Below, in pieces: positions 19,940-30,170 of a stretch of 30,170 nt of DNA (positions are counted from its first letter, which is position 1; each line of letters begins with the position of its first letter). Location: positions 1-30,170 of the forward strand of contig JAFGGQ010000084.1 of assembly GCA_016930435.1 (NCBI GenBank), given 5' to 3'. Under the pieces are notes generated by a model. That model saw nothing but the letters and a program-made list of their open reading frames with translations. It ran no database searches and was not told the DNA's origin. Source of the stretch: a bacterium (lineage in GTDB: Bacteria > UBP14 > UBA6098 > JAFGQG01). Both the position numbers and the translations under genes were made by a program.

Positions 19940-20332
19940 ATGAAAATAGTATATACTCCCAATGCTCCTGAGCCGGTAGGGCCATATAGTCAAGCCATCA
20001 GAGCGGGTTCATTATTATTTCTCTCCGGCCAAATACCTATCAATCCAATGAACGGTGAAATTGTGGAGGGTGATATCGCAGCTCAAACCGAAATGGTGAT
20101 TAAAAACCTTGCAAGCGTCCTAAAAGCTGCCGGTGCGACTTTAGCCGATATCGCAAAAACTACCGTTTATATGACCAACCTGGGCCAGTTCTCACAAATG
20201 AATGAGGTTTATAATCGTTACTTCAAGGATCACCCACCAGCCAGGGCGACCATTGAAGTCAGTAGTCTGCCCAAAGGAGTCCAGGTCGAGATTGAAGCTA
20301 TCGCTTATATAGAAGAAAACCGGGAACGATAA
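19940..20332 (+). CDS. ridA: RidA family enamine/imine deaminase
   Basis: RidA hydrolyses reactive enamine and imine intermediates, such as 2-aminoacrylate made by PLP enzymes, and so protects PLP-dependent proteins. The 130-residue cytoplasmic protein has PVGPYSQAIRAG, LFLSGQIPINP, KTTVYMTNLGQFSQMNEVY and PARATIEVSSLPKGVQVEIEAIA. R102 in PARAT is the substrate-carboxylate Arg of active RidA, and the Glu after it (VEIEAIA) is also kept. It is full length and trimeric by family. It lies 9 bases after the redoxin gene and probably shares its transcript. Confidence 0.96.
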   Translation: MKIVYTPNAPEPVGPYSQAIRAGSLLFLSGQIPINPMNGEIVEGDIAAQTEMVIKNLASVLKAAGATLADIAKTTVYMTNLGQFSQMNEVYNRYFKDHPPARATIEVSSLPKGVQVEIEAIAYIEENRER

Positions 20333-20385
20333 ACCATAAATTTTTTTTGCCCCTATATGTTATAAAAAAATAACTGGTGATTATC

Positions 20386-22569
20386 ATGAATAAAACCATC
20401 ATTGCCCTGCTTGCTATCCTGTTCCTTCTCCTGGCCTTTTCCGGAGGAGGCTGGAAGGCCTATCCCAAAGCTATCGGCGTGGTTGCCATCTGTGGATTGT
20501 TTATGCTCCATCTAAGCCGTTCAAAAACCCGGTTGGACTTTTCCCGGCCTTACCTTGCTGCCTGGCTGCTATTTCTGCTCTGGGCTCTATACTGTACCAT
20601 AAGTTCTCATTCGCCGGATAAATCCGTTGAGGAGCTGATACTATATTGCTCTTATTTTATGATATTCCTGCTTGGACTGCGAATTAATCTTGATCCCCAT
20701 ATTTTAAAAAATTTTTTACGCTATTTTTTACTGGGCAGCATGGCCATCCTGCTCATTGGTTACTATTATTTCCTGCTTCCCAGGATATCAAGCATTGATA
20801 CTACCAGTGATATGATCCAGTACTTTTTCGGTACTTTTTACTGGAAGAATCCTATGGGGGGTTACCTTATCATGATCCTCCCCCTAATACTGTCCATGAT
20901 CGCACTTGAGAAAAAAGGCTGGCGGGTTTTCTTTATCTGCCTGTTCGCGCTGGGGGGACAAGCGCTGATACTGACACATTCCCGGGGTGCCTGGCTGTCA
21001 TTTTTACCAGCATTCCTGATCTGGATCGCGCTGGCAGCGAAATTTATTACGCGTAAAGCATTGGTCTATATCCTCCTGGCTATATTTCTCTCACTTATCA
21101 TTACCCCGCTCTTTTCACCTCCAAGGAACCTCTTCCGCAAAGTACAAACCATCAGCCAGATATCAGAGGATATAGAAAAACAGGAACAATCTTTTGGGGA
21201 CCGCATAACCATGTATAAAGGGGCACTCCGGATAATACGGGACCATCCCTTCAGGGGCGTTGGACTTAATGCTTACAGCTCTGTCTATCCACAATACCTC
21301 CGAACCTCTACCTATCTTTCAAAATACCTTCATAATCAATACCTTCAGATCACCACCGAGATGGGAATACCTGGATTAATCCTATTCCTTTTTTTATTGG
21401 GTTCCCTGATTTTCACTCTTATCAAAAGGACATTACGGACGAAGGATGAAATACGGATACTCCTGGGTGGATCCTTAGCTGCCCTTTTGGCGGTTCTTTT
21501 TCATATCCTGGTCGATTTCGATTGGACATTTTGCGCTATCACCATGCCTTTCTGGTTCATCTCCGGACTGGCCATCAATCTTGGTGCCCCAAAAGAACAT
21601 TTTAAACCCGGTAAGGGTATTCTCCAAAGAGCTTTCCTGATTATCCTGGCAATATTAACCGCTACCCTTATCCTGACCCGGTATTATGCTGAACATTACT
21701 ATCAAACCGGCGTTATGCTCCTAAATGAAGGCTATTACGGGGAGGCTGAACTGAAGTTTAAAAGAGCTCATCAGCTCAATCCTTTATCCGGGGAATACTG
21801 CAATGCCCTGGCTCAAACTTATAAAACCACCAACCAACCCCTTGATTGGCTTGAATATTCCAGTAAAGCGATTAAATGGGAACCATATTCCGCAGATTAC
21901 CATTATGAACTTGGCTCCTACTACCTTAACGCCGGACGGTCAAGTGAAGCTCTCAAGTACTTTTCCCGGTCAGTTGAGCTTGCTCCCTTAAGCCGGCCAC
22001 AACATTATAATCAACTGGCAGAATTATTCCTTGAAAGGGGAAATTTCCAAAAAGCGCTGGAAACTTATGAAAAGGTTGCGGTTAAATTTTCCAATGACCC
22101 TAATGAATGGTACAACAGCAGTACTATTGCCCATCGCTATTTCGTGGCAGAAGCATACCTGCAGATCGCCCGGCTAAAAGAAACAATGGGCGTTCAGGAT
22201 AATATTGAATATTACCGCAAGATCGCTAAAAGGTTATGGGAACCTCGTGAAGTGGACAAGATCGCAGAAATATTTGGCCATCATATCCAGGCCCCCGAGA
22301 AAGTGGTTTACGATTTCTGGAATGCACTTTCCCGGTTGGATTCTAACCTGGTCGTAGAATTGGTTTACGAAAATATAACCTTCTCCCCTCCAGATTGGAA
22401 AAAAGCATCCCTCTATCGTATCCTTGATATCAATTATGACTATATTCAGGGTTATTGCCAGCTTATATTCATCCTCGAACTTGAGGACTGGGAGGGTAAC
22501 CAGTGGAAGGAAAAGAGGCGTATCAACCTCGAACTTACCGAACCGGGCTGGAGAATTCGCTTATTATAA
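20386..22569 (+). CDS. O-antigen ligase-like membrane protein fused to TPR repeats
   Basis: The protein belongs to the Wzy_C/O-antigen ligase superfamily, which joins or polymerises glycans at the periplasmic face of the inner membrane. About the first 430 residues are a multi-helix membrane domain. It includes R200 in RGAWLSF and H316 in LHNQYLQITTEMGIPGL, the two conserved periplasmic-loop sites of the superfamily. Residues 436 to about 590 are tetratricopeptide repeats (AELKFKRAHQLNPLS, ALKYFSRSVELAPLS). The last 110 residues resemble an NTF2-like fold, by inference. I chose ATG 20386, with GGTGAT just upstream, over the in-frame GTG at 20377. The glycan substrate is unknown. Confidence 0.88.
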   Translation: MNKTIIALLAILFLLLAFSGGGWKAYPKAIGVVAICGLFMLHLSRSKTRLDFSRPYLAAWLLFLLWALYCTISSHSPDKSVEELILYCSYFMIFLLGLRINLDPHILKNFLRYFLLGSMAILLIGYYYFLLPRISSIDTTSDMIQYFFGTFYWKNPMGGYLIMILPLILSMIALEKKGWRVFFICLFALGGQALILTHSRGAWLSFLPAFLIWIALAAKFITRKALVYILLAIFLSLIITPLFSPPRNLFRKVQTISQISEDIEKQEQSFGDRITMYKGALRIIRDHPFRGVGLNAYSSVYPQYLRTSTYLSKYLHNQYLQITTEMGIPGLILFLFLLGSLIFTLIKRTLRTKDEIRILLGGSLAALLAVLFHILVDFDWTFCAITMPFWFISGLAINLGAPKEHFKPGKGILQRAFLIILAILTATLILTRYYAEHYYQTGVMLLNEGYYGEAELKFKRAHQLNPLSGEYCNALAQTYKTTNQPLDWLEYSSKAIKWEPYSADYHYELGSYYLNAGRSSEALKYFSRSVELAPLSRPQHYNQLAELFLERGNFQKALETYEKVAVKFSNDPNEWYNSSTIAHRYFVAEAYLQIARLKETMGVQDNIEYYRKIAKRLWEPREVDKIAEIFGHHIQAPEKVVYDFWNALSRLDSNLVVELVYENITFSPPDWKKASLYRILDINYDYIQGYCQLIFILELEDWEGNQWKEKRRINLELTEPGWRIRLL

Positions 22570-22668: not shown

Positions 22669-25600
22669 ATGGCTGTGCTCTTCAATAAATTTACGGTAAC
22701 AAGGGTTTTAGGGGAGGGTGGGACGGGCAAGGTTTTCCTTGTCCGGGATGTAGCTGGTACTCCCACTCAGTTAGCCCTAAAAGTGCTCTCCCCGGATATC
22801 AGGAACTCGCTGATGCTGGGTCATTTCAAACGGGAATTCTACCTGATGGCACAGCTTTCCCATCCACAAGTAGTTAAAGTACATGATTTCGGCGGGTCTG
22901 ATAGCGATTATTATTTTACAATGGAATACCTTAAGGGCAAAGCACTTGCCGAAATTCACCGTGGTCAGGATTGGGGAACAGTAGCTGAATATCTTATAGA
23001 GATCTGCCAGGGTTTGGAGTTCATTCATTCCTGGGGTATCATACACCTGGATCTAAAACCCAGCAATATTTTCAAAGAACATAACCGGCTGGTGTTGCTG
23101 GATTTTGGCCTTGCATATCGGGGCGGCAGAAAGAGCCAAAAGCTTTCAGGAACACTTCCGTACTTATCACCCGAAAGGATCCGCAATGAACCCTTCGACC
23201 ATCGGGCAGACCTTTACTCCCTGGGCATAATCGCTTATGAATACTGCTCCGGAGCTAATCCCTTCGGGGATAAGCAACCCCTGCAGATAATAAAAAAGCA
23301 ACTGGAATTTCAACCCCCGCCACTTGAGCTGTTAAATCCTGATACAAACCCTCAATTCTCCGGGCTGATACAGTCCCTCCTGAACAAAAACCCTTATGAC
23401 CGCATTAATAATGCCTACCAACTCAGGGTTCAATTGCTTAAACTGCTGAATAAACCACTTAAAGGAAAATCATGTAAGAACAAATACCTGCCCCAGGGCA
23501 AACTGACCGGAAGAACTGCCCAGATAAAACTATTGCAGAATACCCTCAATCAGTTAGGTGAGATAACAGCTATCGCCCTCACCGGAGAAGAAGGTCTGGG
23601 CAAAAAAAGGTTAATGCAGGAGTTCAAACCACTTGTACAATTGCAGGAAGGAACCTTTATCTGGGTTGAACCAAACAATTTGGACCTTTTTTATCAGATT
23701 GTTGAACCATTCCTGAAACCCGGCGTGGAACCTATCCTGACTAAATACCTGGTTGACTTTTTGCACTTTATACCCTCGATGAAGGAGCATCCATTTATAC
23801 AAAAACAGGGTGTGCCCGATGGTAAAAGGAGTCTGGAAACCCGCAAAGTATTTTGGAATGCACTCATCCAATTCCTGTTCGAGGTATGCGCAAAAAAACC
23901 ATGCGTGATATTCTGGCCTGACCATATTCAACATCCCTTTCTGAAAAGCCTTGTAGCAAGCAAGCCCAGGGAAAGCAAACTTTTGGTCGTTTATGCCATT
24001 GACGACCAATCCAAGGCGGAGACAGATTATTTGGTCAGAAACTCTGATTTCCAGATAGAATTGAAAAATTTTTCATCTTCTGAAATTGCCGAATATTTAC
24101 TATCATTATTTAATCCACTTAAGGGTAAAGATGACCTGGTTAGTTTTCTTTACCATCAAACCAAAGGACACCCTGGCAAAATCAGGCAAATACTTGTACA
24201 ACTATTAGCTTGTGATAAATTACTGCAAACACTATCCGGATGGGAATATCGAGCCGGTAAAACCATTCAGGATAAATTGACAAATAAACAATCTATTGCT
24301 AATACACTACAAAAACTATCAGATCAGCAAAGAGAATTACTAATAGCCTTTACATTGGTCAGAAGAACTCTTCCCTATAGCTTTCTTGAATTAATACTAC
24401 CCTCCCCTCACCAACTGGCGGATGCCCTTTCCGTACTGCTTTCAGTTAATCTGGTCAAGGAAGACACGGAAACTGAAGGCAATTATTCGCTCGCCTCCTT
24501 CGGGCTTCTGAAACCTGTACGCTCAAGCTGGAAAAAAAGGGAGCTGGAATCTTATTGTCTGAGATTGGCCGGGGCTGTTTCCGAATGGGAACAATGTCAG
24601 GATTGGTTGGCCGAACTCGCCCTTATCTTTTACCAGGCTAACGATATTCAAAATGCCCTAAAATACGCCGAATTAGCTGCTGAAAAAGCAAGGAAAGAAT
24701 ACAACTACGAATTGGTTATAAGTAATTATGAGCTTTATATTAAAATTCAGAACGAACAGGGAGAGCGGGAACATACAATTAAACCCTTGAAGATCATAGG
24801 TCTGATGCAAAAGGATATCGGCAATTACCATGCCGCCCGAGAGAGTTACCAGAAAGCTGCTGAAATCGCAAAAGAGTATAACCTCCCTGATCAACTTGCT
24901 GATATTTACAATGATTTGGGAGTAACCTACTTCGAGGAGGGGATCCCGGAAAAGTGCCTGACATACTACCGGGAAGCCTTGAAACTAGAAGATGAGCAAC
25001 AATATACCAAGGGTATTATGCGGACGCTTAACAACCTGGGAAGCGTCCTTTTACGTTTGAACAATCTACCGGAAGCTCGCGAACACTTTGAGAAATCCCT
25101 AAGATTAGCTCAAGAGACAGACCATATCAAGATGCAGGCGACCCTGATGCTCAATCTGGGCGAGGTTAATCTTATATTGGACAATCTGGAAATTGCCCAT
25201 GAATTTTTCCAGCATTCCGCTAGTATATCGAGAAAACATAATGCTTTCCCTTATCTCTTTACGAATTTGATCAACCTGACGGAGCTCTATCTTAGGCAAG
25301 GAAAGTTGGCTTTCGTTCAAAAGGCTATGGAAGAAGCAGAACAACTCCTTAAAAAAATTAAAACCACCAAATACCATTTTATTTATACTCTTCAGCAGGC
25401 CAAATGGTTACTCCAAACTGGAGATTTCCCCAAGGCAAATAAGGTTTTGGATGATTTCATTAAAGAGGAAGTGTTGATAACTGAGTCTCAGAAACAAAAA
25501 ATACTGCTCCAGAAATGTATTATTGCAGTTTATTCGGAGGACCCTCAAATTCTTAGGAGTTTGACAAGCCAATTAAAAAACCATCCGGACATCCCGGAAA

Positions 25601-27531
25601 TAGAGGCTTATCATTTACTTTTCCAGGGAGTAATCAGATACATTCTTGATGAAAAGCAGGGGGCATATCCCTATTTCAACGAGGCAATAGGCAAGTTCCG
25701 GGAGATTCAATCACCTGAAGGAATTGCACTAACGCTGTTTTATCAGACCCAGCTCTTTTTGGATCTTGGTGAATTCGAAAATGCCACCGGGAACATCGAG
25801 GACTTCCGGATTCGGAACAAACAGTACTTCTATTTTCGTGCTGCCGGTTATTTTCTGGCGGCAAGGCAAGCCCTGTTACAAAATAGGGATAAAGACTTTA
25901 TTAGCTTTTATGAGGAAGCCAGGGAATCCTTCCTGATACTTAATCATAAACCCTGGCTGGAAAAGCTAAAAACCCTTAAAGAGAATACACTAAATAAGAG
26001 AGATTCAACCATGAATGCCAAAACCGATAGACTATTTGAGGTTATCAAAGCACTCAATTCCACCTTAAAACCAGATGCCCTTTTGAATTTGATAGTAGAG
26101 AAGTTCCTGGAGGTTAGCCAGACTGAACGAGGCTTTTTGTTGTTGGACGAAGAGGGTGATCTGAAGTTGAAGGTAGCCCTGGATTCACATGGCCAAACCC
26201 TGAGTGGTGATAGGGCAAGGTTTTCCCATACCATCGTAAATGAGGTATTTATAGGAGGTAAATCCCGCATTGCCGAAAGTATATCCGACGAGGATACCCT
26301 GTCAATTCAAAAGAGCATTATTGATCTGGATTTAAAAACAGTTCTCTGCGTTCCCATACGCGTAAGGGATAAAATAGAGGGAGTTATTTATACGGACGCC
26401 TCCTATGGATCAGCTCAGTTTTCGGAAGAAGACCTGAAGATACTCTCCGCTTTGGCTGATCAAGCTGGTATCGCCCTGGAAAATGCCCGGACTTATTACC
26501 AGCTTAAAGAGCGTAACTTTTTTCTCCGCCAGGAGCTGGAGGGCCGTTTCAGTTCCGATAATATTATCGGGGAATCCCCCCCTATGCAGGCTCTGTACCA
26601 CAAACTGCAGGTTATTTGTAATCAGGATGTTACCGTTTTGATACTGGGTGAAACTGGGGTCGGTAAGGATCTTATAGCTAAGGCAATCCATTATAACAGC
26701 GACCGTCGGGAAAATCCTTTTGTAGCTTTGAACTGTGCAGCAGTACCCGAAACGCTTCTGGAAAGTGAGTTATTCGGTTATAACAAAGGAGCCTTTACAG
26801 GAGCAGTTAAAGACAAACCCGGTAAATTTGAAGTGGCACAGGGTGGCACCATCTTCCTTGATGAGATCGGCGATCTCAGTCCTGCACTCCAGGCTAAGCT
26901 GCTCCGTGTAATCGAGGACCACTGCTTTCAGAGAGTAGGTGGATTACAGGATATTTCGGTGGATGTACGTATTCTATCCGCTACTAATAAGAATCTCCAG
27001 TTACTGATGAAAAACGGCCAGTTCCGGGAAGACCTCTACTACCGTCTGGCAGCTATCCGATTAGAGATTCCACCCCTCCGTGAACGTTTTGAAGATATCC
27101 CACTGCTATCCGAGTACTTCATCAAAAAAGCAGGGGACAAATTCAATAAGAATATAAGGGGATTAAATCCTGAGGTTAATCGAATCCTTAAAGAATACCC
27201 ATGGCCCGGAAATGTCCGTCAATTGGAAAATGCCGTGGAAGAAATGGTAATATTCTCAGAATCGGACATAATTACCCCCCAGCAACTGCCAAATTACCTC
27301 CAGGGCTCACCCGATCATCACGCAGAACCAGAGTCCTTCCATAAATATTCGAACCCCCGCAACCTGGAGGAGCTCAAAGAGATAAAAAGAAGTTTATCCG
27401 AGGAATACGAGAAAATGATAATTCAAAAATTACTCGCGGATTACCAGGGAAATATAACAATAGCTGCGGATAGATTCGGAATAAACCGCTGCAGACTGCA
27501 CCACCTGATTAAAAAATACCACTTAAAGTAA
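22669..27531 (+). CDS. Kinase-STAND-TPR-GAF-sigma54 AAA+-Fis regulator
   Basis: This 1620-residue cytoplasmic protein joins a signalling kinase to a transcription activator. Residues 7-262 are a Ser/Thr kinase: Gly loop GEGGTG (15-20), K38, E56, HLDLKPSN (126-133) and DFG (145-147), all intact but with Leu in place of the HRD Arg. Residues about 280-600 are a STAND-like ATPase with P-loop GEEGLGKK (306-313). TPR repeats fill about 650-1080, and a GAF domain about 1118-1282. A sigma54-activating AAA+ domain follows: Walker A GETGVGKD (1327-1334), GAFTGA (1374-1379), TIFLDE (1394-1399) and REDLYYRLA. The C-terminus is a Fis-type helix-turn-helix (about 1575-1620). The ATG lacks a ribosome binding site, and an upstream TATAAT-like string lies only 3 bases before it. 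The gene is isolated from upstream genes by about 100 bases. Confidence 0.95.
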   Translation: MAVLFNKFTVTRVLGEGGTGKVFLVRDVAGTPTQLALKVLSPDIRNSLMLGHFKREFYLMAQLSHPQVVKVHDFGGSDSDYYFTMEYLKGKALAEIHRGQDWGTVAEYLIEICQGLEFIHSWGIIHLDLKPSNIFKEHNRLVLLDFGLAYRGGRKSQKLSGTLPYLSPERIRNEPFDHRADLYSLGIIAYEYCSGANPFGDKQPLQIIKKQLEFQPPPLELLNPDTNPQFSGLIQSLLNKNPYDRINNAYQLRVQLLKLLNKPLKGKSCKNKYLPQGKLTGRTAQIKLLQNTLNQLGEITAIALTGEEGLGKKRLMQEFKPLVQLQEGTFIWVEPNNLDLFYQIVEPFLKPGVEPILTKYLVDFLHFIPSMKEHPFIQKQGVPDGKRSLETRKVFWNALIQFLFEVCAKKPCVIFWPDHIQHPFLKSLVASKPRESKLLVVYAIDDQSKAETDYLVRNSDFQIELKNFSSSEIAEYLLSLFNPLKGKDDLVSFLYHQTKGHPGKIRQILVQLLACDKLLQTLSGWEYRAGKTIQDKLTNKQSIANTLQKLSDQQRELLIAFTLVRRTLPYSFLELILPSPHQLADALSVLLSVNLVKEDTETEGNYSLASFGLLKPVRSSWKKRELESYCLRLAGAVSEWEQCQDWLAELALIFYQANDIQNALKYAELAAEKARKEYNYELVISNYELYIKIQNEQGEREHTIKPLKIIGLMQKDIGNYHAARESYQKAAEIAKEYNLPDQLADIYNDLGVTYFEEGIPEKCLTYYREALKLEDEQQYTKGIMRTLNNLGSVLLRLNNLPEAREHFEKSLRLAQETDHIKMQATLMLNLGEVNLILDNLEIAHEFFQHSASISRKHNAFPYLFTNLINLTELYLRQGKLAFVQKAMEEAEQLLKKIKTTKYHFIYTLQQAKWLLQTGDFPKANKVLDDFIKEEVLITESQKQKILLQKCIIAVYSEDPQILRSLTSQLKNHPDIPEIEAYHLLFQGVIRYILDEKQGAYPYFNEAIGKFREIQSPEGIALTLFYQTQLFLDLGEFENATGNIEDFRIRNKQYFYFRAAGYFLAARQALLQNRDKDFISFYEEARESFLILNHKPWLEKLKTLKENTLNKRDSTMNAKTDRLFEVIKALNSTLKPDALLNLIVEKFLEVSQTERGFLLLDEEGDLKLKVALDSHGQTLSGDRARFSHTIVNEVFIGGKSRIAESISDEDTLSIQKSIIDLDLKTVLCVPIRVRDKIEGVIYTDASYGSAQFSEEDLKILSALADQAGIALENARTYYQLKERNFFLRQELEGRFSSDNIIGESPPMQALYHKLQVICNQDVTVLILGETGVGKDLIAKAIHYNSDRRENPFVALNCAAVPETLLESELFGYNKGAFTGAVKDKPGKFEVAQGGTIFLDEIGDLSPALQAKLLRVIEDHCFQRVGGLQDISVDVRILSATNKNLQLLMKNGQFREDLYYRLAAIRLEIPPLRERFEDIPLLSEYFIKKAGDKFNKNIRGLNPEVNRILKEYPWPGNVRQLENAVEEMVIFSESDIITPQQLPNYLQGSPDHHAEPESFHKYSNPRNLEELKEIKRSLSEEYEKMIIQKLLADYQGNITIAADRFGINRCRLHHLIKKYHLK

Positions 27532-27538
27532 TGCTAAT

Positions 27539-27551
27539 ATAACAATGTTAC
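27539..27551 (+). promoter_or_regulatory. Inverted repeat 1, candidate activator site
   Basis: ATAAC-AAT-GTTAC, with a perfect TAACA/TGTTA core, lies 8 bases after the regulator's stop and about 180 bases upstream of the -24 box. It shares ATAAC/GTTA with two other repeats in the gap. AT-rich DNA makes such repeats common, so this is tentative. Confidence 0.35.
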
Positions 27552-27625
27552 AATTAAATAATAATAGTATATTTGCATATTTCATTTCATATCAATTGAA
27601 TATAGCAATAATATACCAAAGTATA

Positions 27626-27641
27626 GTTATATTTATATAAC
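27626..27641 (+). promoter_or_regulatory. Inverted repeat 2, candidate activator site
   Basis: GTTATA and TATAAC flank a TTTA spacer with perfect six-base arms, about 90 bases upstream of the -24 box. The half-sites face the other way compared with repeats 1 and 3. Confidence 0.35.
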
Positions 27642-27729: not shown

Positions 27730-27745
27730 TGGCACAATAGTTGAT
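27730..27745 (+). promoter_or_regulatory. Candidate sigma54 (-24/-12) promoter
   Basis: TGGCAC (27730-27735), five bases, then TTGAT (27741-27745) matches the family pattern TGGCACGnnnnTTGCW at the right spacing. The GG is exact and the -12 box has GA where GC is usual. It is preceded by a T-run. Transcription would start near 27756, about 100 bases before the surface-protein ATG. The upstream gene encodes an intact sigma54 activator, which strengthens the case. Confidence 0.6.
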
Positions 27746-27854: not shown

Positions 27855-30170
27855 ATGGGACTAAGTAAGATCATCCCGAACAACTTTGTAAGGTTTATTT
27901 CGTTTTGTATTTTGATTATTTCAATTTTTGGGGCCATTGGATCAGTTTGTCCTATATTCGGGGCCGAACTGCTGGATACGAGTCCACCATATTTTCAGAA
28001 CTGGAACCCCTCCCCCGGCGCAGTCAACATTCCGCCGAATACTGCAATCACTGTGGATATTCTGGACTGCCGGGGAGAAGATATCTCCGGAGTGAACCCC
28101 GAAACAATACACCTTTTAATAGTGTTTGGGGCAGATACCCTTCTGATACCCCACTCAAGCTTAGGATTAACTCCCATCGATTGCGCAGGTTATTCGATTT
28201 TCTATAACGATCCTCTGCACCCCTTCCCGGAATGCACCGAAATTAAAGTAGGCGTTTATGCCGAGGATTTTGCAGGACTAATCGCCGGCGATCACATCTC
28301 TTTCACTACCGGGGGATGCTCTATACCCCCTGATTCAGCGGGTCCTGTAGCTGAACTAATAACCCCTCTTAACTTTTCCTGGAGTGCCTGCCCTGACCAA
28401 AACATTGTGATCAGTATTGAGGATCCCGATGGAATCAACCCGGAGACTATTCTCCTCGACGTTAATGGATTTGAATATGGGGTCGATCATCCCGCTCTCA
28501 CCTGGTATCACATGGATGCTATTCTGGTCTTCGACCAAGATCCCCCATGGCCTGATGGCATTACTGTTAATGTATCACTCTTAACCGCAGAAGATATGCG
28601 TGGAAATCCACTTACGGACGCACCCCTATCCTGGAACTTCGGAATTGATCTCGGTAACCCCTATTTCCAGGAACCATTACCAGGCCATTTGGAAACACTT
28701 ACAGCTCATCCCGAATTCATATCCGTTGTCTGCCTCGATGATTACAGCGGTATCAATGTCGAAACTTTACAAATCCAGTTCAACGCCGGACTCTGGCATT
28801 CTTATTCCGAACCCCATGTTTTCTGGGACCCTTATACGAACCGTTTAACCTACAGCACCCTGGGCTATCCTCCCTACACTCCCGGTCCGGAAGGTTCCGT
28901 GCGAGTCTGTGTTAGAGCAGCAGATAATCCCGACTACTGCGATGAAAATTGGGGAAATTACTGCTGGACATTTTACGTAGTCCCCGAAGAAGAAGACTCT
29001 TGCCCACCACTTGCTATGGATTGGCATCCTGCCAGAAGCGATACCTGCTATCCGCCCGATATCAATATTCATTTTAATATAGTTGATCCCCAGGATCCCG
29101 GATCCGAATGCCCTGTCTGCTCCGGGATAAACCTGGATAGCCTCCGGGTAACCCTTTATAATTACGGGACCTTATATGAATTATACCCCGGCGAGGGTTT
29201 GATCATTGATCCCGCCGGACCTTGCAACTTGTTCGTAATGCTCGATTCCAGCTACTATTCTATCGAGGGCTCCCATGCTATGATAACCGTTTACATGATG
29301 GATAACGCAGGAAACTCTGCCGTAACCAATAAAAATATTTATTTTTGCGCCACCCTCGATGATATCTGGGCTCCATGCTTCAGTAACTGGTATCCAGCTG
29401 AAGGTTGTCTCGAACCGGGTGAAAGCCTTGGGGTTACTATCTGCGACGTTTGTGAGGGAGCTTTATATTCCAGCGGAGTCGATCTGGAGTCCATCGAAGC
29501 GGTCGCCATTCATGGAACCGACACATTGAACATATTAGATTACCTTACCTTCTACCCCAATGAATGCGGGGGATATTCGCTTTCATACACCGTCCCTCGC
29601 ATTATCGTTTCACGGGAAGCCGTTGAAGTATGTATTTATGCCTCTGATTTCTCCGGTAACCGCAGCCATGATTGTCATATTTTTAACTATTGTGATTCCC
29701 TGCCGCCGGATTGTTCACCCCTATTATTAGGGGTTACTCCCCATGTTGGAGCCTGGGAGGTACCTGCCAATGCCGGTATAGCGATGGATTTCGGTCCCGC
29801 GGGGGATTTCTGCCCGGAAATGTGCTGGGATACTCTGAGTTTTTCCGGATGGCTGGAAATAATACATGATGGGTCTATTGATACGGTGGAACTGAACTAC
29901 GACGATGTGGAATTCTGGTTCGGTTTTTACCCGGTTATCAATATCGAATACCACCATCCGGAACCCTGGCCTTCAGGGGCAACCGTGCATGGTATCTGGG
30001 AAATAGCCGATTGCGCAGAAAATTATGCTGATGGGATGGTCTATTTTCACGTTGAAGCATTGGATACTACAGATACCTGGCCACCCTGCTTTAGTGAATG
30101 GTTCCCGATACGCGAATGCCTTGAACCCGGCGATATTCTGGGCGTCAGTATCTGCGACGTTTGCGAGGGA
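27855..30170 (+). CDS. Secreted cysteine-rich Ig-like repeat protein (3' end beyond window)
   Basis: The frame is open from ATG 27855 to the window edge, 772 codons with no stop, so the protein is longer. AAGGAGG (27842-27848) fixes the start. A signal peptide covers about residues 1-37, with probable cleavage after PIFGA. The rest is a series of beta-rich modules, each with a (S/D)G(I/V)(N/D)xxxx(I/L) motif at about residues 79, 193, 299, 424 and 541, spaced 106-125 residues. This pattern is that of bacterial Ig-like domains. From about residue 370 on the modules become Cys-rich. A segment with CLEPG and ICDVCEG (about residues 507-527) recurs at the very end, 237 residues later. It is probably a surface or extracellular adhesin or sheath protein. 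The partner or ligand is unknown. Confidence 0.85.
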   Translation, partial: MGLSKIIPNNFVRFISFCILIISIFGAIGSVCPIFGAELLDTSPPYFQNWNPSPGAVNIPPNTAITVDILDCRGEDISGVNPETIHLLIVFGADTLLIPHSSLGLTPIDCAGYSIFYNDPLHPFPECTEIKVGVYAEDFAGLIAGDHISFTTGGCSIPPDSAGPVAELITPLNFSWSACPDQNIVISIEDPDGINPETILLDVNGFEYGVDHPALTWYHMDAILVFDQDPPWPDGITVNVSLLTAEDMRGNPLTDAPLSWNFGIDLGNPYFQEPLPGHLETLTAHPEFISVVCLDDYSGINVETLQIQFNAGLWHSYSEPHVFWDPYTNRLTYSTLGYPPYTPGPEGSVRVCVRAADNPDYCDENWGNYCWTFYVVPEEEDSCPPLAMDWHPARSDTCYPPDINIHFNIVDPQDPGSECPVCSGINLDSLRVTLYNYGTLYELYPGEGLIIDPAGPCNLFVMLDSSYYSIEGSHAMITVYMMDNAGNSAVTNKNIYFCATLDDIWAPCFSNWYPAEGCLEPGESLGVTICDVCEGALYSSGVDLESIEAVAIHGTDTLNILDYLTFYPNECGGYSLSYTVPRIIVSREAVEVCIYASDFSGNRSHDCHIFNYCDSLPPDCSPLLLGVTPHVGAWEVPANAGIAMDFGPAGDFCPEMCWDTLSFSGWLEIIHDGSIDTVELNYDDVEFWFGFYPVINIEYHHPEPWPSGATVHGIWEIADCAENYADGMVYFHVEALDTTDTWPPCFSEWFPIRECLEPGDILGVSICDVCEG

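Follow-up and report, generated by a model that had tools for sequence, protein, structure and literature searches.

A kinase-STAND-TPR-GAF-sigma54 activator fusion and its predicted exported-protein targets in an uncultured bacterial lineage

Gene layout of the locus and domains of the fusion protein

The window (the whole 30,170-nucleotide stretch analysed) contains one open frame of 1,620 amino acids, running from an ATG at 22669 to a final base at 27531. Pfam places in it, from the N to the C terminus, Pkinase, AAA_16/STAND, TPR, GAF, Sigma54_activat, AAA_lid_14 and HTH_8, with all matches above their cut-offs except HTH_8. The reading of an earlier note, in which kinase, STAND-like, TPR, GAF and sigma54 activator parts occupy a single polypeptide, is thereby confirmed, and this architecture is regarded as practically certain; its suggestion that several inputs are integrated is consistent with the domain order. 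The features of the locus are as follows.

20359 to 20374, no strand assigned: dyad GTTATAAAAAAATAAC, candidate auto-operator, just 5' of the Wzy_C gene
20386 to 22569, + strand: gene for a Wzy_C (O-antigen ligase family) plus TPR membrane protein (PF04932, 6e-27), conserved upstream neighbour
22669 to 27531, + strand: kinase-STAND-TPR-GAF-sigma54 activator (single ORF, Pfam, homologues)
22693 to 23409, + strand: Hanks-type kinase domain, non-RD (HLDLKPSN), residues 9-247 (PF00069, 5e-45; alignment with PknB)
23500 to 23931, + strand: core of the STAND module, an AAA_16 domain of NOD fold whose Walker A and Walker B are non-standard, residues 278-421 (PF13191, 1.4e-8; 35.8 bits against a cut-off of 32.6)
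24736 to 25998, + strand: TPR superhelix that presumably senses a signal or binds a partner (TPR_12, TPR_MalT and others, at residues about 740-930 and beyond; limits approximate)
26071 to 26481, + strand: GAF domain, residues 1135-1271 (GAF_2 2e-13, GAF 4e-11)
26563 to 27327, + strand: sigma54-interacting AAA+ domain plus lid, GAFTGA intact (PF00158, 3e-71, residues 1299-1465; PF25601, 4e-26)
27400 to 27519, + strand: Fis-type helix-turn-helix, residues 1578-1617 (PF02954, E 3e-4; R-x-R-L-(H/Q)-x-L helix conserved)
27547 to 27562, no strand assigned: distal dyad, imperfect, GTTACAATTAAATAAT (9/10 match with the degenerate consensus, at 79 bp from its proximal partner)
27626 to 27641, no strand assigned: proximal dyad GTTATATTTATATAAC, perfect, candidate UAS
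27730 to 27745, + strand: predicted -24/-12 promoter TGGCACAATAGTTGAT (consensus and position shared with genomes G001 and G002)
27855 to 30170, + strand: presumed target gene, start only, coding for a large Ig-like exported protein and open to the contig end

The engine motifs of the activator part are complete (Walker A GETGVGKD, GAFTGA, Walker B GTIFLDEI, FREDLYYRL, PPLRER and WPGNVRQLEN), and all sigma54 motifs, the arginine-finger region included, are kept across the aligned homologues of the phylum, which bears out the claim that the output motifs are intact. The HTH_8 match scores just below its cut-off (20.8 bits vs 22) and is conserved in homologues. The nearest solved structure to the activator part is NifA (9qq6), and a NifA profile matches residues 1119-1540 at 1.5e-112; the score for the NifA equivalog TIGR01817 stays under its cut-off (377.1 vs 528.85 bits). 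The same assembly encodes one RpoN (PF04552, 1.1e-56) and has seven strong sigma54 AAA+ matches. Judged by sequence, the fusion therefore appears to have what marks a sigma54 enhancer-binding protein, namely the AAA+ motifs, a Fis-type HTH, an RpoN in the genome and dyads with a -24/-12 promoter at a presumed target, the promoter being assigned by consensus and conservation with the -12 element of the window one base off (TTGAT, not TTGCW).

Within the kinase domain the catalytic residues K38, E56, D128, N133, D145 and E169 are present, and Leu replaces the HRD Arg. Alignment with PknB, the solved kinase nearest to the domain, and with homologues recovers the Hanks-type core (beta3 Lys, alphaC Glu, catalytic Asp, Asn and DFG) much as it had been described before. 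The Lys, Asp, Asn and DFG are kept throughout the phylum homologues, and the alphaC Glu is lost in the kinase of G014 (L035). All phylum homologues covering the catalytic loop read HLD or HCD, which places the domain outside the RD subclass, and no conserved Ser/Thr was found in their activation loops. With the HRD Arg absent from these homologues and the loop so composed, autophosphorylation of the activation loop is not favoured as a gate for the ATPase. The fusion kinase is the sole Pkinase of its own 2.85 Mb assembly (90% complete), and it is usually the only one in each of the 11 genomes that carry the fusion.

The STAND module was modelled by AlphaFold with a pLDDT of 85, and its best Foldseek matches were the STAND-TPR structure 6mfv, Apaf-1 and CED-4, with MalT 8bob also in the list; the module has thus kept the NOD fold, and a repeat sensor comes after it, as in STAND NTPases. 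Its Walker motifs are non-standard (GEEGLGKKR, with Lys for Ser/Thr, and IFWPDHIQ). Walker A reads GKK in the window and in both copies of G011, GYS or GYT in family f3, GCS or GVT in G016 and G013, and GKT or GKS with the remainder lost in G014 and G002; Walker B is degraded in the phylum outside f3. Because none of the phylum members checked has both Walker motifs in standard form, the description of this module as an energy-dependent sensor is not supported.

Distribution of the fusion within and beyond the phylum

Homologues were sought by searching the middle part of the fusion against 17 genomes of the phylum, and matches of similar length were found in 11 of them, the source genome included, across four families. 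Full kinase-to-HTH ORFs occur in G011 (two copies), G014, G006, G002, G007 and G005, contig ends truncate those of G003, G013 and G016, and the frame of G001 is split. No homologue was found in G004, G009 or G015, each over 90% complete. Identity between families is about 40% for the kinase, about 20% for STAND plus TPR and 51-59% for the AAA+ domain. The source is a MAG and a split frame does occur in G001, so an ORF produced by assembly or annotation from two separate genes, as the earlier note had warned, was considered; the same single ORF is present in independent assemblies of four families, and the split gene of G001 has an intact close relative in G002. This explanation was rejected, and its probability is taken to be negligible. 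The second fusion of G011 (L034:5182-10501) is diverged and has as divergent neighbour a gene for a 1,525 aa beta-helix exported protein, with a 9/10 dyad GTTACTAATTAATAAC in between.

Related fusions had been anticipated in other genomes, and a scan of genome contigs with a kinase-to-GAF alignment found the Pkinase-AAA_16-TPR-GAF-sigma54 order with GAFTGA in MAGs labelled as Calditrichota, Acidobacteriota (two), Gemmatimonadota and Latescibacterota, the GAF match being partial in one of them (L066). These proteins share the domain order of the window fusion, and their STAND Walker motifs are largely standard. No Wzy_C partner or dyad/promoter layout was seen in those of their flanks that were examined. 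The Calditrichota protein (L053:8730-13805) reads HGNLKPEN and is probably a pseudokinase, because Asn replaces the catalytic Asp; its sigma54 engine is intact. In keeping with the earlier statement that no characterised member with this order is known, no paper on a kinase-sigma54 fusion was found among the open-access papers searched; the order itself is present in these other phyla.

In a kinase tree the fusions of the phylum cluster (SH-aLRT 92). Placing the kinase-sigma54 fusion on this tree takes 4 changes of label, at weak support, and the fusion may have arisen once or more than once. The HRD Arg was lost in 12 of 14 sigma54-fused kinases vs 4 of 36 other fusions, a count in which the search pattern took in HLD/HCD and 9 of the 12 losses come from one lineage; the association of HRD loss with sigma54 fusion is accordingly a lead rather than a rule.

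Predicted control regions and neighbouring genes

The earlier reading of the locus had overlooked both its cis-elements and the probable target gene beside it. Downstream of the fusion gene, 16-bp dyads of the form GTTAYN6RTAAC (GTAAY in G001 and G002) stand in a pair about 79 bp apart, the distal one lying 75-84 bp beyond the proximal. A dyad pair and promoter were found beside the fusion gene in six genomes from three families (G000, which is the window genome, G001, G002, G014, G016 and G011). The spacing is regular: from the centre of the proximal dyad to the GG of the -24 element the distance is 97 bp in G000, 96 in G011, 73 in both G001 and G002, 82 in G014 and 95 in G016, and in these genomes the distal dyad sits 75-79 bp beyond. 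The -24/-12 element is at the same place in G001 (TGGCACAATAGTTGCT) and G002 (TGGCACAATAATTGCC), G014 (TGGCAAGAAAAATGCG) and G016 (CGGCATATTTTATGCT) match the promoter less well, and the contig of G011 stops inside TGGCAC at the corresponding place. The distal dyad is imperfect in G001 as well as in the window, and the dyads are AT-rich and lie within AT-rich DNA.

The gene that follows is homologous to the gene at the same place in G001, G002, G014 and G016, with identities of 42% over 206 aa between the window and G014 and 33% over 283 aa between the window and G016. A Big_5 match in the window protein is below cut-off, and the G014 protein carries a C-terminal T9SS-type sorting domain. Contigs end in or just before this gene in five genomes (window 30170; L033 12626; L038 1; L041 9289; L036 5254), a pattern suggestive of strain variation or of repeats within the gene. 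In genus g7 (G006 and G007) a gene for a Sir2-like deacetylase lies directly 3' of the fusion and replaces the exported-protein gene (L037:3822-4574, L039:1-258).

Sites of the same layout also occur away from the fusion gene. In G014 and G016 they lie 5' of orthologous CotH-kinase (PF08757) genes, 55% identical, and two in G011 lie 5' of genes for exported proteins of 1,172 and 1,641 aa; in the source genome the window site is the sole dyad-promoter pair of this layout. Across the 17 genomes the combined dyad-promoter pattern gave 4 matches vs 0 in the reversed control in its strict form and 6 vs 1 and 7 vs 2 in looser forms, every match falling in a fusion-bearing genome. The loose -24/-12 pattern alone was near chance in the source genome (40 vs 30 in the reversed control), and no case was built on promoters by themselves. 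GTTATN6ATAAC on its own was likewise not enriched there (7 vs 7), and the case for the target therefore rests on position and conservation, from which activation of the downstream gene by the fusion through the dyads is predicted with good confidence. A GTTATN6ATAAC copy at 26769, inside coding sequence, was taken as coincidence, and a double-dyad pattern in G004, with no promoter or exported gene seen, was taken as chance. Two further sites were recorded: a double dyad 78 bp apart in G016 C5 (L190:6777-6870), within an apparent polysaccharide cluster and with no recognisable -24/-12, and a perfect TGGCACGGGAATTGCT at G000:C113:17526-17541 (L148), flanked by the gene for a sigma54 activator of response-regulator type and by the following response-regulator gene.

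Upstream, the Wzy_C gene adjoins the fusion in eight genomes from four families (the window and seven others), its homologues being full-length. The two genes overlap or abut in several genomes and appear to form one operon. A small ORF that resembles a transposase (by eye of IS200/RAYT type) lies between them in G011 (L033:6859-7290), and a Rid-family gene (window 19940-20332) is found 5' of the Wzy_C gene, conserved in G000, G011 and G014. Five genomes, three of them from f3, have an intergenic stretch before the Wzy_C gene, and in all five GTTAN8TAAC lies immediately 5' of that gene, a result reached by 0.001-0.0045 of dinucleotide shuffles in each genome. In f3 the exact dyad GTTATTNTATNTTAAC was present only at fusion operons in the four genomes searched, and its near-matches genome-wide were equal in number to the control. 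The dyad overlaps a sigma70-like -10 in G006 and G005 (by eye), and repression is therefore suggested. Control of its own Wzy_C operon by the fusion is considered reasonably likely.

Proposed mechanism, alternatives and relation to known systems

Taken together, the protein is best read as a cytosolic one-component sigma54 activator that probably controls surface-protein genes and also its own operon. Its HTH would bind the paired dyads, and the protein would assemble as an AAA+ ring and open the sigma54-RNA polymerase complex at the -24/-12 promoter, switching on the large exported surface protein; further targets may be the CotH-family proteins in G014 and G016 and other sorted proteins in G011. 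At the Wzy_C dyad it would tune, and probably repress, its own operon, whose Wzy_C product may transfer sugar onto envelope glycans or the exported protein. The GAF and TPR parts may restrain the engine and release it on binding of a ligand or partner, the STAND module presumably serving as a non-cycling scaffold, and a candidate role of the kinase is to modify the fusion itself or a partner. A bolder reading, judged less likely than not, makes this a sigma54 activator gated by the Ser/Thr kinase in the same chain: on a signal read by the TPR region and a non-cycling STAND scaffold, the non-RD kinase would phosphorylate the GAF/AAA+ half of the protein, or some partner, and so control a phylum-wide exported-protein regulon plus the O-antigen-ligase operon.

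The place of the kinase can be read in two other ways. It may be a gate, an idea of the earlier note, with phosphorylation of the GAF, linker or AAA+ part of the same chain switching the sigma54 engine on or off; kinase and engine share a chain in 11 genomes, where this is usually the only Pkinase, and the catalytic residues are conserved. Set against this are the missing HRD Arg and the activation loop with no conserved Ser/Thr in the phylum homologues, the loss of the alphaC Glu in G014, and the Calditrichota relative with Asn for the catalytic Asp, and such a gate is a doubtful proposition. Kinase and STAND might instead be relics or scaffolds on a plain GAF-controlled, NifA-like activator, as the phylum-wide degeneration of the STAND Walker motifs beside an intact engine and the nearness of the GAF-AAA+ part to NifA would have it. 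The kinase, however, seems to be under selection, because it is better conserved between families than STAND and TPR and keeps its catalytic residues, and the relic reading is judged rather unlikely.

The dyads could also be owned by another regulator, their linkage to the fusion being coincidental and the fusion acting elsewhere. The target pair was not found in the four fusion-bearing genomes of family f3 that were searched; on the other side, four families have dyads adjoining either the fusion gene or its operon, and the combined matches are confined to fusion-bearing genomes. This linkage leads us to infer that the dyads belong to the fusion protein, and ownership by another regulator is considered improbable.

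A kinase and a sigma54 activator normally come as two different proteins. The present lineage, in which the fusion kinase is usually the genome's only Pkinase, has both in one chain. None of the parts is new in itself; what the analysis adds is the predicted cis-code and regulon. For uncultured bacteria this supplies a predicted regulon of exported surface proteins tied to an O-antigen-ligase-like enzyme, and since the comparison gives a predicted binding site, promoter and target gene, the activity of the protein, the role of its kinase and its signal can be tested in the absence of cultivation.

Compared with NifA/NtrC-type activators, the fusion shares the GAF-AAA+-Fis HTH arrangement in its C-terminal third, the GAFTGA motif and dyads upstream of a -24/-12 promoter, but it has 1,100 extra N-terminal residues (kinase, STAND and TPR) and falls under the NifA equivalog cut-off. 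PknK, a relative of MalT, belongs to the STAND class and is a serine-threonine kinase (PMC4381067). The fusion resembles PknK/MalT-type regulators in having a STAND fold followed by a TPR-like sensor and differs in its non-standard Walker motifs and in its output, which is a sigma54 AAA+ engine rather than a kinase alone or a LuxR-type HTH. Surveys from 2005 and 2007 include kinase-MalT, kinase-TPR-GGDEF (PMC1262709) and kinase-GAF-HisKA proteins, the last being the cyanobacterial Ser/Thr-His dual kinases of the HstK group (PMC2176072); the word sigma54 is absent from both surveys (PMC1262709, PMC2176072). The HstK group and the kinase-TPR-GGDEF proteins share the front-end logic with exchangeable outputs, whereas the output of the fusion is transcription activation. 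GGDEF-output proteins of the kinase-STAND-TPR type were also seen in MAGs labelled as Spirochaetes and Firmicutes (L061, L059, L072, L089 and L093); all have HRD, and those of L093 lie in tandem.
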